Positions 9,291 through 14,568 of a DNA stretch of 64,000 nt are shown piece by piece. Location: NCBI GenBank assembly GCA_028866895.1, contig JAGWHF010000001.1:62001-126000 (forward strand). The letters run 5' to 3'. The stretch's first letter is position 1. Every line of letters starts with the position of its first letter. Source of the stretch: Nitrososphaerota archaeon. Lineage in GTDB: Archaea; Thermoproteota; Nitrososphaeria; Nitrososphaerales; Nitrosopumilaceae. Below the pieces are notes generated by a model, which had not been told where the DNA came from, searched no databases, and saw only the letters and a program-made list of their open reading frames with translations. The position numbers and the translations under genes were made by a program.

Positions 9291-9361
9291 ACCAAATTTT
9301 GTAAGTTAATTAAAAAAAACTAGGATACTTCTTTTATAGCGATATCATGAAACCAATTCTG

Positions 9362-9523
9362 ATGTCAGTAGACGTCGTGTGCGACAAATGCGGATCAAAA
9401 ATTGCAAGCATGCGCATGCTCAAATCGATCAAGGAGGTCATGAGGCCATATAATAACAAATGTCCGTCATGCGGCCACACGCTGTCATCCTCGGATTTCG
9501 GCGTTGATGTACAGCGGAACTGA
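9362..9523 (+). CDS. Small double-CxxC zinc-ribbon protein
   Basis: A 53-residue protein with CDKCG near its start and CPSCG about 27 residues later, joined by a basic helix-like segment. An in-frame ATG at 9347 would add five residues, but the TATA-like CTTTTATAG at 9331-9339 is spaced for transcription start at about 9361, which favours the ATG at 9362. It could be a nucleic-acid or protein adaptor. I cannot assign a function. Confidence 0.6.
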   Translation: MSVDVVCDKCGSKIASMRMLKSIKEVMRPYNNKCPSCGHTLSSSDFGVDVQRN

Positions 9524-9568
9524 TCTAAAAAGTTTGCGCATCAAATAGGTCATAATTCTTATTTACTG

Positions 9569-11683
9569 ATGCCTGTTAGACTTCCTATGGAACTTAGCGA
9601 GGACTTTGGGGAGCAGAAGCGAGGAGGCATTTTACAGTCAGCATCAAAACGCGTAAGAATGATCTTTTCTGTCATGGCAAGCCCCAACAGAATAGACATC
9701 CTGAGGATCTTAAATTCAAAAGGACCGCTCACCTATTCGGAGCTAAAGTCCCTTGCCGGATTCAAGTCAAAAAAAGAGAGCGGCAAGTTTGCATATCACC
9801 TCAGAAAACTGCTGCGCCAGTCGCTCGTCGCGCTTAACAAGTCCGAACGCAGGTATACGATAACCAACCTTGGAAAACTGGTCCTCAGCCTTGCAAGGCA
9901 GATTGAGGAGCGCTCAATAATTGAGAGCGGCAAGATGTATGTGCGGACTTCGCACGAATCAATCGAAGAATTCAACTCACACAAGATAATCCAATCCCTG
10001 GTAAGGGAGGGCAGCCTTCCACTGGAGCTGGCCCAAAAGATAACGGAGGAGGTGGAAAACAGGATCTACAAGTTCCAGACCTCCTACCTGACCTCGTCCC
10101 TGATACGCGAGATGGTAAATTCCGTCCTTCTGGAACAGGGGCACGAGGATTACAGGCACAAACTTGCCAGGTTCGGCCTGCCGGGATATGACATTCACGA
10201 GATGCTGACCAACGTGGACGGCATCCATAACGGCGTCGAGGGCCTTCTATTTAAGACGGGAAAGAGCGTTTTTGGGGAGTATCTGGTACTAAACACGCTC
10301 CCAAAGGACGTGGCTGACTCTCACCTCTCAGGAGACATCCATATAACAAACACGGGGTTATGGTCCCTTCTTCCAGATACCCTCTTTGTGAACATTAAGG
10401 AGCTGGTGGAGGAGGGCATAGACCTGCGGGGCAAGTTCCTCGGCGTGACTAGGATTCCTCCTCCAAACTCCCTTGAAGGTGTCGGCACGGCGCTCTCCAT
10501 TGCGGTCTCCCTGCTGGTAAAGGAGGCCTCACAGGAGGTGGTCCTTGACGGGCTAGTCGGCCTGCTTCAAAAATACTCGAAGAATATTTCAGAGATCGAG
10601 GATAAAATTGCAGATTCCTTTGCCAAAATGTCCGTGGCTTCCAAATTAAGCAAGGACTCGACCCTGGCATCATTTAGGATTTCGCTTGCCTCCGACCCCA
10701 AAATTGCCAATGCCATATTTAGCGCGTATAAAAACTATGTAAAGGCCACGCCGCTGCCGACCATCGGGATAATTGTGGACTATGAAAAGTCCAAGATTGG
10801 GGACTTTTCGGCCATACTTTCAGAGATAGTCTCGCTTGGCGGGCACGTGATGTTCTCAAAGGGGATCTCCTCCAACAAGGGCCTCTCAAAGGCGGACGGA
10901 AAGAACCTGGCTGCAACATCGATCAGCCTCCAGTCACTGTCCATCAACATGCCCAGGCTTGCGTTTGAGTCAAACAAGGACGAGACATACTTTAGGGCAA
11001 GGCTCGCCCTGCTGATGAAGCCTGCACTTGCCGCCATGTCTATACGAAAGAAGGAAATCTCCGATCTTACCCGCAGGGGGCTGAACCCGATCCTTGCAAA
11101 CAACACCCAGTACATGCAAAAGGGATCGGTCTCACTGGTAGTCAACCTGATAGGGCTCAGGGAAGCCGTCTATGGCATTCTGGGATACGAGAACAACAAA
11201 GCCGGCCAGGAAATACTTGCCAAGGTAGTGACAACAGCCACCGAGGTTGCCTCCAAGAAGGGCAAGGAGATGGGGGACAATGTCACGGTCTCCATCACGG
11301 AGAGCGATGCCGCGTCGAGATTCTCGTCGCTTGACGGAGAAAAGTACGGTAAAATGTCAATCCACCCGCACGTGGAGGGAGAATCCTACTCGGAGGGAGT
11401 CGTTATCGACGCGTCGGAGATGGACTCTATGAACGCAAAGAGCGAGAAGATATTGGAGTCGAACCATCTCCTGAAGATGCTCAACGGAGGGCTGCTGGTC
11501 CAACTCAGGATTCCTGAAACCATGGATACCGCGGGGATCAGGAAGGCCCTTGAGAAGGCGGGCGATCTATTAAGCTCCTTCAGGCCGTATAGGAAAGTGC
11601 CCATATGCAGCAACTGCGGACTCAAGGAAGAAAAGATTTCAGAAAAATGTCCTGTATGTAAGTCCCCTTACATACTGGCCTAA
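9569..11683 (+). CDS. Helix-turn-helix / ATP-cone / NrdD-like protein, putative ribonucleotide reductase regulator
   Basis: A 704-residue multidomain protein. Residues about 30-112 form a winged helix (ASPNRIDILRIL...YHLRKLL...YTITNLGK). Residues about 125-215 resemble the ATP-cone that senses dATP/ATP in ribonucleotide reductases. The rest follows the anaerobic class III reductase NrdD, ending in a Cys4 site (C680, C683, C694, C697) like the NrdD zinc site. The glycyl-radical loop expected after that site is absent because the chain stops seven residues later, so catalysis is unlikely. It lies directly upstream of nrdJ. A nucleotide-sensing transcription factor for nrdJ, analogous to bacterial NrdR, is my inference. 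Confidence 0.75.
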   Translation: MPVRLPMELSEDFGEQKRGGILQSASKRVRMIFSVMASPNRIDILRILNSKGPLTYSELKSLAGFKSKKESGKFAYHLRKLLRQSLVALNKSERRYTITNLGKLVLSLARQIEERSIIESGKMYVRTSHESIEEFNSHKIIQSLVREGSLPLELAQKITEEVENRIYKFQTSYLTSSLIREMVNSVLLEQGHEDYRHKLARFGLPGYDIHEMLTNVDGIHNGVEGLLFKTGKSVFGEYLVLNTLPKDVADSHLSGDIHITNTGLWSLLPDTLFVNIKELVEEGIDLRGKFLGVTRIPPPNSLEGVGTALSIAVSLLVKEASQEVVLDGLVGLLQKYSKNISEIEDKIADSFAKMSVASKLSKDSTLASFRISLASDPKIANAIFSAYKNYVKATPLPTIGIIVDYEKSKIGDFSAILSEIVSLGGHVMFSKGISSNKGLSKADGKNLAATSISLQSLSINMPRLAFESNKDETYFRARLALLMKPALAAMSIRKKEISDLTRRGLNPILANNTQYMQKGSVSLVVNLIGLREAVYGILGYENNKAGQEILAKVVTTATEVASKKGKEMGDNVTVSITESDAASRFSSLDGEKYGKMSIHPHVEGESYSEGVVIDASEMDSMNAKSEKILESNHLLKMLNGGLLVQLRIPETMDTAGIRKALEKAGDLLSSFRPYRKVPICSNCGLKEEKISEKCPVCKSPYILA

Positions 11684-11867
11684 ACCCTTCTTAGAGCAGG
11701 CGATCAGAAAGTTAAATTTTTTAAAATTACGCCCAAACTATTGGCAATTTCCTTCGTAATTTTCTTAGGAATATATTTGATTGAATAGATCTATTATCAT
11801 GAAAATTGGAATGGTGTCAACAAAATTGACGCAAAGCTCAGCAATGGAAAAAAAAATTTCGCCGCAG

Positions 11868-11905
11868 ACTTTATTTAACTCCCGTTTGTTTAAGAGGCGG
11901 GGAGT
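11868..11905 (+). promoter_or_regulatory. nrdJ promoter with inverted repeat over the start region
   Basis: A TATA-like ACTTTATTTAAC (about 11868-11879) runs into an interrupted inverted repeat, ACTCCCG (11878-11884) and CGGGGAGT (11898-11905), which differ by one extra G. The right arm contains the purine-rich GGGGAG just before the ATG at 11911. It could be an operator for the upstream HTH/ATP-cone protein or a hairpin that hides the ribosome-binding site. Confidence 0.45.
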
Positions 11906-11910
11906 GTAAA

Positions 11911-14568
11911 ATGACAGATTTTTCACAAATAGAGAATTCGATCATTGAGGTTAAGAAACGTGATGGTCGGGTATCATCGTTCCAAAAAGAAAAGATTTCA
12001 AACGCTATCTATAAAGCGCTGGTAGCGTGCGGCAGGCCTGACCATGGTCTTGCAGACAAGCTTGCAAACCGGGTCACGGAGAAGCTCGTGAACCACGGCT
12101 ATTCTTCAGCGGAGGCTCCAAGCGTTGAGGACATTCAGGACATGGTGGAGTCGACCCTCATCGACGAGGGCGAGGGAGAGATTGCCAAAACATACATCCT
12201 GTACAGGCATGAGCGCAGGAGGCTGAGGGAGGAGAAGATGAAGGTGCTTGAATCAAGGTTGCTTGATCCAGTGGCCAAGAAGTTCGACCTCAACTGCCTC
12301 CGCGTGCTGGCGTCCAGATACCTGCTCAGGAACAACAAGGGGCAGATTAGGGAGACGCCGGGCGAGATGTTTGAACGGGTTGCAACATTGGTCGGCATAT
12401 CGGACGTGCTCAAAGACCCGGTCGTATTCAACGTCGAAGGAGGGCAGCCAAGGGACATAGAGGAGGCCACACGATACATGGAAAAGCTGGATGACTTTGA
12501 TAACAAGTTCAAGATCGGCAGGTACTACCTCAACAAGTATCACTTCAGGTCGCTGATACAGCATTACATCGACCTTGCACAGAAAGGCCAGATGAGAGTG
12601 AGCATCAAGGAATTCCTCACAATGCTGGCGGCAAACAGCTTCGAGCAGTACGGGGAGAGAATAAATGAATACTATGAGATGATGGCCTCGCAGGACTACC
12701 TGCCAAATTCGCCCACCATGATGAACGCGGGTGCACGGCTGGGACAGCTCTCTGCATGCTTTGTGCTTGCCATGCCAGACGACATGGAGAAGATAATGAA
12801 GTCGTCATCCGACGCCGCGCTGATATTCAAGTCCGGAGGAGGCGTGGGGATAAACTATTCTGATCTCAGGCCGGAAGGGGATGTGGTCGCATCCACCTCA
12901 GGGGTGGCATCAGGGCCGGTCTCCTTCATGAATATCATCAACACCGTGACGGAAGTTGTCAAGCAGGGCGGCAAGAGGAGGGGGGCCAACATGGGAATAA
13001 TCGAGGCCTGGCATCCGGATGTGGAGAAATTCATTACGGCAAAGACCAAGCCCGGCGTACTTGAAAACTTCAACGTAAGCGTCGGTGTATGGGAGGACTT
13101 TTGGGAGGCGCTTGTAAACTCGACTGACGGCAAGTACACCCTGCGGAGCCCGATAGACAAGTCTCCGGCAAGGGAGGTAAACGCCCACCACATCATAGAC
13201 CTCATTGCGCTCTCTGCATGGAAGAGTGCTGAGCCCGGGCTGATCTTCTTTGATATAATAAACAAGTACAACGTGTTTGCAAAGGCAAGGGGGGTGCCGC
13301 TGCGTGCCACCAACCCGTGCGGCGAGCAGAGCCTGTACCCATACGAGTCATGCAACCTTGGCTCGATCAATCTTGCCAACTTTGTGAAGAGGAAGGCAGA
13401 CGGGCAGTACGAGTTTGACTGGCAGAGGTACGAGGAAACGATAAGGAAGACCACTAGGTTCCTCGACAACGTAATCGATGTAAACAATTATCCGATAGCG
13501 GAGATTGACAAGGCATCCAAGGATTCCAGAAGGATAGGGCTCGGGGTTATGGGCGTGGCAGACCTGCTGTTCAAGCTGCGCATCCCATACAACTCGCAGG
13601 AAGGGTACGAGTTTCAGGAAAAGCTGGCAGAAGCCCTGACATATTACTCCATGGAGGAGAGCGTGGCCCTCGCAAAGACGAGGGGGCCGTTCCCGCTGTG
13701 CTCGAAAACGGAATATCCGGAGGGAAAGATCCCGATTGCGGGATACTATGAAAAGCCCAAGAATGCCCGCACATACGACTGGGACGCCCTCATTGCCAAG
13801 ATCCAGAAGCACGGGATAAGGAACGTCCTTACCACCACCGTGGCGCCTACGGGAACCCTGTCGATGATTGCTGACTGCTCCAACGGCATGGAGCCCATGT
13901 TCGCACTCGTGTTTGAGAAGCGAGTCACGGTGGGCAGGTTCTTCTACACCAACAAGATATTTGAGGCCGTCCTCAAGGAGCACGGGCTTTACAACGACCA
14001 GATCCTAGAAAAGATTGCCAACAACTACGGGTCGATAAAGGGAATTCCTGAGATACCGGAGTGGATGCAGAAGATCTTTGTGACTGCCATGGACATTCAC
14101 TGGGCTGACCACCTGATGGCGCAGGCCGTCTGGCAGAGGTGGATAGGTAACGCCATTGCAAAGACGATCAACATGCCAAACGACGTCTCTTCCGACGACG
14201 TAAAGGCGACATATCTCCTGGCCCACGAGCTCGGGCTCAAGGGAATCACCGTCTTCAGGGACGGCTCGAGGCACGAGCAGGTCCTTCACATGACGGGGGA
14301 CAACGTGCAGAAGACGTTCAACGTTACACCGAGCATCTACGTGACCGACTACATCTCAAAGAACATCACTAACGCCTACCTCAAGGGCCAGGTCGAGCGC
14401 GCGCTTGCAATCAGGATCCCGGACCTCGAGGTCCAGCAGCAACAGCCGAAGCTTACGACCGAGCAGCTGGAGGAGAGGCTGTGCCCCACATGCAAGAATG
14501 CGCTTGTGTTTGCGGAAGGATGCAACATCTGCATAGAATGCGGGTACAGCGGATGCACGTCCGGATAG
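11911..14568 (+). CDS. nrdJ: Adenosylcobalamin-dependent (class II) ribonucleoside-diphosphate reductase
   Basis: An 885-residue enzyme that reduces ribonucleotides to deoxyribonucleotides using a radical generated from adenosylcobalamin. An ATP-cone occupies residues about 12-105. LPNSPTMMNAG is followed by SACFVLAMPDD with Cys 283, one of the redox cysteines, and NPCGEQ with Cys 470 is the radical-site motif with its flanking Asn and Glu. The C-terminal tail has CPTC...CNIC.ECG...C, the type that re-reduces the active site. No class I small subunit is nearby, which agrees with B12 dependence. The late cobalamin genes at 41687-45887 supply part of the cofactor pathway. Confidence 0.95.
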   Translation: MTDFSQIENSIIEVKKRDGRVSSFQKEKISNAIYKALVACGRPDHGLADKLANRVTEKLVNHGYSSAEAPSVEDIQDMVESTLIDEGEGEIAKTYILYRHERRRLREEKMKVLESRLLDPVAKKFDLNCLRVLASRYLLRNNKGQIRETPGEMFERVATLVGISDVLKDPVVFNVEGGQPRDIEEATRYMEKLDDFDNKFKIGRYYLNKYHFRSLIQHYIDLAQKGQMRVSIKEFLTMLAANSFEQYGERINEYYEMMASQDYLPNSPTMMNAGARLGQLSACFVLAMPDDMEKIMKSSSDAALIFKSGGGVGINYSDLRPEGDVVASTSGVASGPVSFMNIINTVTEVVKQGGKRRGANMGIIEAWHPDVEKFITAKTKPGVLENFNVSVGVWEDFWEALVNSTDGKYTLRSPIDKSPAREVNAHHIIDLIALSAWKSAEPGLIFFDIINKYNVFAKARGVPLRATNPCGEQSLYPYESCNLGSINLANFVKRKADGQYEFDWQRYEETIRKTTRFLDNVIDVNNYPIAEIDKASKDSRRIGLGVMGVADLLFKLRIPYNSQEGYEFQEKLAEALTYYSMEESVALAKTRGPFPLCSKTEYPEGKIPIAGYYEKPKNARTYDWDALIAKIQKHGIRNVLTTTVAPTGTLSMIADCSNGMEPMFALVFEKRVTVGRFFYTNKIFEAVLKEHGLYNDQILEKIANNYGSIKGIPEIPEWMQKIFVTAMDIHWADHLMAQAVWQRWIGNAIAKTINMPNDVSSDDVKATYLLAHELGLKGITVFRDGSRHEQVLHMTGDNVQKTFNVTPSIYVTDYISKNITNAYLKGQVERALAIRIPDLEVQQQQPKLTTEQLEERLCPTCKNALVFAEGCNICIECGYSGCTSG

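Follow-up and report, generated by a model that had tools for sequence, protein, structure and literature searches.

Why should an ammonia-oxidising archaeon carry, next to the gene for its class II RNR, a protein that resembles the class III enzyme NrdD and begins with a winged helix? The window considered here is a stretch of 64,000 nucleotides from the genome of a Nitrosotalea-like ammonia-oxidising archaeon (assembly of 2.26 Mb in 95 contigs), which falls in family f1, the Nitrosopumilaceae; f1, f25 and similar family names are labels of this analysis. In aerobic archaea, proteins of this kind, referred to below as pseudo-NrdD proteins, are easily taken for anaerobic reductases.

Domain build of the pseudo-NrdD protein

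The locus, as far as the end of the pseudo-NrdD gene, contains the following features.

9347..9523, + strand: zinc-ribbon ORF of 58 aa, which precedes the pseudo-NrdD gene in the Nitrosopumilaceae loci aligned
9556..9567, + strand: TATA-like box of the pseudo-NrdD gene, TTCTTATTTACT, kept in the alignment of loci
9587..11683, + strand: coding sequence of the pseudo-NrdD protein (HTH, ATP-cone, pseudo-NrdD), 698 aa from M7
9662..9886, + strand: winged helix, ArsR-like, residues 32-106 (PF24038, PF12840; ArsR/HlyU structures)
9935..10153, + strand: ATP-cone, residues 123-195 (PF03477), the best-conserved domain of the family
10274..11584, + strand: NrdD barrel lacking the catalytic cysteines (G438/L439 at the radical-loop position, T271 in place of the second cysteine)
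11606..11659, + strand: four-cysteine zinc site C680, C683, C694 and C697; the protein stops before any glycyl loop

The open reading frame runs from 9569 to 11683 and encodes 704 aa. Its true start is probably M7, at nucleotide 9587, because the TATA-like box abuts the first ATG and many relatives begin at MELSEDF. From the box to 9587 the distance is about 25 nt. Pfam searches with the 704-aa frame give matches above the curated cut-offs for every domain: DUF7347 HTH (residues 32-106, E 2.4e-10), HTH_20 (36-88, E 6.7e-8), ATP-cone (E 9.4e-10) and NRDD (E 9.6e-25). Thus one protein does combine a winged helix and an ATP-cone with an NrdD body that keeps the zinc site, as an earlier note on this DNA described. 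The recognition helix of the HTH is of typical ArsR type, with a YHL motif kept across the family. The ATP-cone is without the classical KRDG start, as are, in part, the nearest NrdD cones. In many Nitrosopumilus-type members (L052-L069), the winged helix is preceded by roughly 20-30 additional residues, acidic and rich in Asp/Glu.

Descent from NrdD and loss of catalytic elements

By descent and fold, the protein is an NrdD. A family profile of 37 members aligns with 24 true NrdDs from the ATP-cone onward (hhalign, probability 100, E 1.5e-98, 637 columns); the query was built from pseudo-NrdD family members only. Against the PDB, the same profile finds the NrdD structures 9d3x (6.1e-38), 4coi (4.4e-32) and 1h78 (2.3e-25) and, separately for the N-terminus, ArsR/HlyU structures. 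An AF2 model with 48 viral NrdDs as extra alignment rows reaches pLDDT 72, and about 85-90 in the barrel. The NrdD-like fold anticipated earlier is seen in this model, for which the 36 best PDB matches in Foldseek are all class III RNRs (best E 1.3e-23), with class I and class II RNRs and other glycyl-radical enzymes far behind. Because the extra rows are NrdDs, the model is supporting rather than independent evidence; with 32 close relatives as the sole rows, pLDDT is 43.5. The N-terminus is poorly modelled (pLDDT 27-49), so the winged-helix assignment rests on sequence. Taken together, hhalign and Foldseek place in the protein a 10-stranded barrel homologous to that of NrdD. In a tree of 572 columns, the pseudo-NrdD family forms one clade, split from the true NrdDs with bootstrap 100 and branching beside ATP-cone-bearing archaeal NrdDs; the phylogeny called for by the earlier note therefore keeps the two apart. 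On the NrdD equivalog model, the protein scores 77.5 bits against a cut-off of 326.

All of the catalytic elements tested, namely the radical cysteine, the second cysteine, the NxN flap and the glycyl loop, are gone. The NxN flap, the first-strand cysteine and the CC pair at the tip of the finger loop do not vary among the 27 true archaeal NrdDs compared and are replaced or deleted here; the glycyl-radical glycine, found in 26 of the 27, is lost. The catalytic positions invariant in 48 of 48 viral NrdDs are likewise replaced or deleted, with the CC pair falling in a gap of that alignment and the first cysteine changed to threonine. Hence no thiyl-radical cysteine is found at the finger-loop tip in the alignments with NrdDs. 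The protein has only four cysteines, all of them zinc ligands, and none in the barrel. Besides these ligands, the residues kept include H252, G255, N460, P462, R463, G529, E532, D589, Y607 and the GG pair at 640-641. Since the chain ends at residue 704, at the zinc site, there is no glycyl-radical loop (RVxGY) after it, in agreement with what had been read from the sequence before. Remnants of the loop in relatives, SRVSAKHLP for SRVTGYYQA in f25 and TKVFGKIKP in f5, point to decay from a working enzyme. The activase NrdG has no match above the cut-off (TIGR02491) in 31 genomes, the source genome and those of relatives, and no full NrdD is found in the Nitrosopumilaceae; the pairing of a glycyl-radical motif with an activase gene, which would have spoken for catalysis, is thus seen on neither side. 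Judged by these lost residues, the protein is not an NrdD by function.

Conservation, gene neighbourhood and the nrdJ promoter

The family was searched for in one phylum, Thermoproteota. Matches occur in 150 of 200 genomes, the weak ones including bare ATP-cones, and family members come from about 40 family-level groups. Within the order of the source organism, f45, sampled with one genome, is without the gene. Viral contigs and phage records contain no relative, and the sole match on plasmids is to the ATP-cone of a Methanomethylovorans NrdD. Between distant members, pairwise identity is 0.42 in the HTH and 0.47 in the ATP-cone, and 0.18-0.25 in the barrel; true NrdDs, by comparison, have 0.36 in the cone and 0.33-0.42 in the barrel, with no preference for the cone. 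In the family, the best-kept parts are now the DNA-binding domain and the ATP-cone rather than the barrel, as a change from enzyme to sensor and DNA-binder predicts. The zinc site is missing in f10, f15 and f30, and the ATP-cone is degenerate in f30, so sensing may differ there. The f30 members (L094, L095, L106 and L107, with the degenerate cone seen in L094) suggest a further change of function.

Of the 30 Nitrosopumilaceae in the phylum sample, 29 have the gene immediately before nrdJ and in the same orientation; the remaining genome is an assembly of 210 contigs. The same arrangement is found in f42 (17 of 17), f2 (4 of 5), f44 (1 of 1) and f43 (1 of 2, with the two genes on separate contigs in the other genome), all four of which are presumably ammonia oxidisers, from their membership in the same order. 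It recurs in f16; in f48, the gene is convergent with nrdJ (4 of 4). At seven loci in four families (f25, f27, f35 and f39), a true nrdD follows directly after the pseudo-NrdD gene. In other lineages the gene also adjoins pyrB/pyrI, and in many its neighbour is pyrB or a NAC gene, not an RNR gene. NrdR (TIGR00244) is over its cut-off in 13 genomes of f3 only, typically right before a bacterial-type nrdD, and nowhere else in the sample, the source genome included; at the f3 loci examined, the pseudo-NrdD gene stands apart from NrdR, next to pyrB. The ammonia oxidisers tested have neither NrdR nor NrdG. Several families of the phylum encode stand-alone proteins of about 95-115 aa (G016:C8, G069:C67, G131:C9 and others), whose match to the NrdR model is confined to the ATP-cone.

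Downstream of the pseudo-NrdD gene, the window continues with nrdJ, the presumed target, and its promoter.

11792..11831, + strand: conserved element, candidate operator, with the dyad GTCAA-N5-TTGAC at 11816-11830
11870..11878, + strand: TATA box of nrdJ, TTTATTTAA, conserved
11911..14568, + strand: nrdJ, class II adenosylcobalamin-dependent RNR (TIGR02504, E 9e-222, NrdJ_Z), with its own ATP-cone (PF03477)

The gene had been described as standing in front of nrdJ. The adjacency holds, but since nrdJ has its own conserved promoter, a shared operon is not implied. The element lies about 40 bp upstream of the nrdJ TATA box and occurs as a single copy in 1.6 Mb of genome G102. Its dyad, GTCAA-N5-TTGAC in the source genome, reads TATGAA-N-TTCATA in Nitrosopumilus-type genomes; at f2 loci, nrdJ is immediately preceded by another dyad, for instance CTACTCTAGATATGTAGTAG. 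These dyad elements of the Nitrosopumilaceae and f2 are candidate operators. By eye, the element is not recognisable before nrdJ outside the Nitrosopumilaceae, and none like it was seen in front of the pseudo-NrdD gene itself. GATC clusters, considered as an operator in one genus of the Nitrosopumilaceae, were rejected: the motif had been chosen by eye and shows no clear enrichment in the source genus, and the strongest cluster is fixed in position between rfcS and a GINS-like gene. That intergenic stretch (L212:1399-1495, with its equivalents in L213-L235) occurs across the Nitrosopumilaceae, the source genome included, and contains 5-8 GATC sites whose positions hardly vary. It has no Rfam match and might be a replication-linked control region. 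The source assembly also encodes a second NrdJ of 604 aa, without an ATP-cone (G000, contig C76:53608-55269; L338:5513-7327), possibly acquired or a binning contaminant.

A candidate regulator of RNR genes

We consider it likely that the pseudo-NrdD protein arose from a dead NrdD and now regulates RNR genes as a one-component sensor of nucleotides. Linkage to two classes of RNR, the absence of NrdR, and the conservation of the HTH and ATP-cone argue for a nucleotide-responsive regulator, and the same observations support the central proposal of the earlier note, that an NrdD scaffold was reused as a nucleotide-sensing transcription factor; DNA binding, dimerisation, dATP or another nucleotide as the ligand, the operator, the targets and the sign of control (repression or activation) are inferred. 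A mechanism may be outlined from the example of NrdR and of the oligomer changes that dATP drives in NrdD (PMC9110341, PMC11226230). The NrdD of an ancestral archaeon would have been duplicated and fused behind an ArsR-type winged helix, with catalysis then lost. The NrdD body would provide dimerisation, and the ATP-cone would read the ATP/dATP state. This state would rearrange the NrdD-type dimer, so that the paired winged helices either bind or release an operator close to the promoter of nrdJ, or of nrdD in other lineages, and RNR expression would thereby be matched to dNTP supply. Repression by dATP is our default guess for the sign. Against this reading stand the limits of the nrdJ element, recognisable in the Nitrosopumilaceae only and with no like copy seen before the pseudo-NrdD gene, the families with a degenerate cone or no zinc site, the many lineages with pyrB or a NAC gene as neighbour, and the missing KRDG start.

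It is also conceivable, if unlikely, that the protein is a DNA-binding nucleotide sensor whose main targets lie elsewhere, in pyrimidine synthesis, replication genes or its own gene, with linkage to RNR genes reflecting shared ancestry of the locus. Such a role would fit the loci beyond the Nitrosopumilaceae, where pyrB is no more than four genes away in 18 of the 40 examined and is often convergent or divergent with the gene, but the downstream nrdJ, downstream nrdD and convergent nrdJ are hard to derive from one inherited locus. More doubtful again is a role as partner of NrdJ, in which the protein, itself non-catalytic, would adjust the activity of the enzyme through mixed oligomers and use the HTH for protein contact. 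Gene adjacency and kinship with RNR folds would suit a partner of this kind; on the other hand, several families pair the protein with a class III enzyme and not NrdJ, the ArsR-type recognition helix keeps its YHL motif across the family, and NrdJ already bears an ATP-cone of its own.

Two further readings have very little left to recommend them. The complete barrel, the zinc site and N460 could be taken to mean a working anaerobic reductase with unusual chemistry, which is strongly contradicted by the missing barrel cysteine, glycyl loop and NxN flap and by the lack of NrdG over the cut-off in the 31 genomes, and which we regard as highly improbable. Least credible of all is a decaying pseudogene or an assembly fusion: the barrel diverges fast between families, but the gene is intact in nearly every sampled genome of the ammonia-oxidising order, and its closest relatives are 81-88% identical, with a near-invariant N-terminal third, which contradicts this reading.

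In ammonia-oxidising archaea, the protein is probably the nucleotide-sensing switch that has been missing for nrdJ. Somewhat less firmly, we favour the broader view that the family represents a new class of archaeal RNR regulator, universal or almost so in ammonia oxidisers and ancient within their phylum, which takes the place of NrdR and reads dNTPs with the allosteric sites of a reductase. NrdR is rare in archaea (PMC9110341). How dNTP synthesis is controlled in archaea without it appears open, and the pseudo-NrdD family is a concrete candidate, which occurs in cultured, globally important organisms. It would also be a case in which an RNR catalytic subunit apparently turned regulator, keeping its allosteric part and discarding the radical chemistry. 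A description of the family was not found in the open-licence literature searched.

Among known systems, NrdD (class III RNR, PF13597) has a homologous ATP-cone, barrel and zinc site, but the pseudo-NrdD protein adds an HTH, forms a separate clade and has lost the catalytic elements. The archaeal ArsR/DUF7347 winged-helix regulators (PF24038) share its N-terminal domain and recognition-helix pattern; they are usually small, whereas this protein carries an NrdD-derived sensor body, and we know of no other regulator of that type that does, nor do the papers searched describe one. NrdR (TIGR00244) resembles it in joining an ATP-cone to a DNA-binding domain, in being encoded beside RNR genes and, presumably, in its job. 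In build the two differ, as had been proposed: NrdR is a small protein with an N-terminal four-cysteine Zn-ribbon and an ATP-cone, whereas the pseudo-NrdD protein has a winged helix in place of the ribbon and a dead NrdD body of roughly 480 residues, in a genome with no TIGR00244 match. At RNR promoters, NrdR occupies palindromic boxes in pairs, with dATP and ATP; what is seen near nrdJ is only a conserved, dyad-bearing element. By its features, the pseudo-NrdD protein belongs with neither NrdR nor NrdD and would be a one-component regulator of RNR genes with an ATP-cone.
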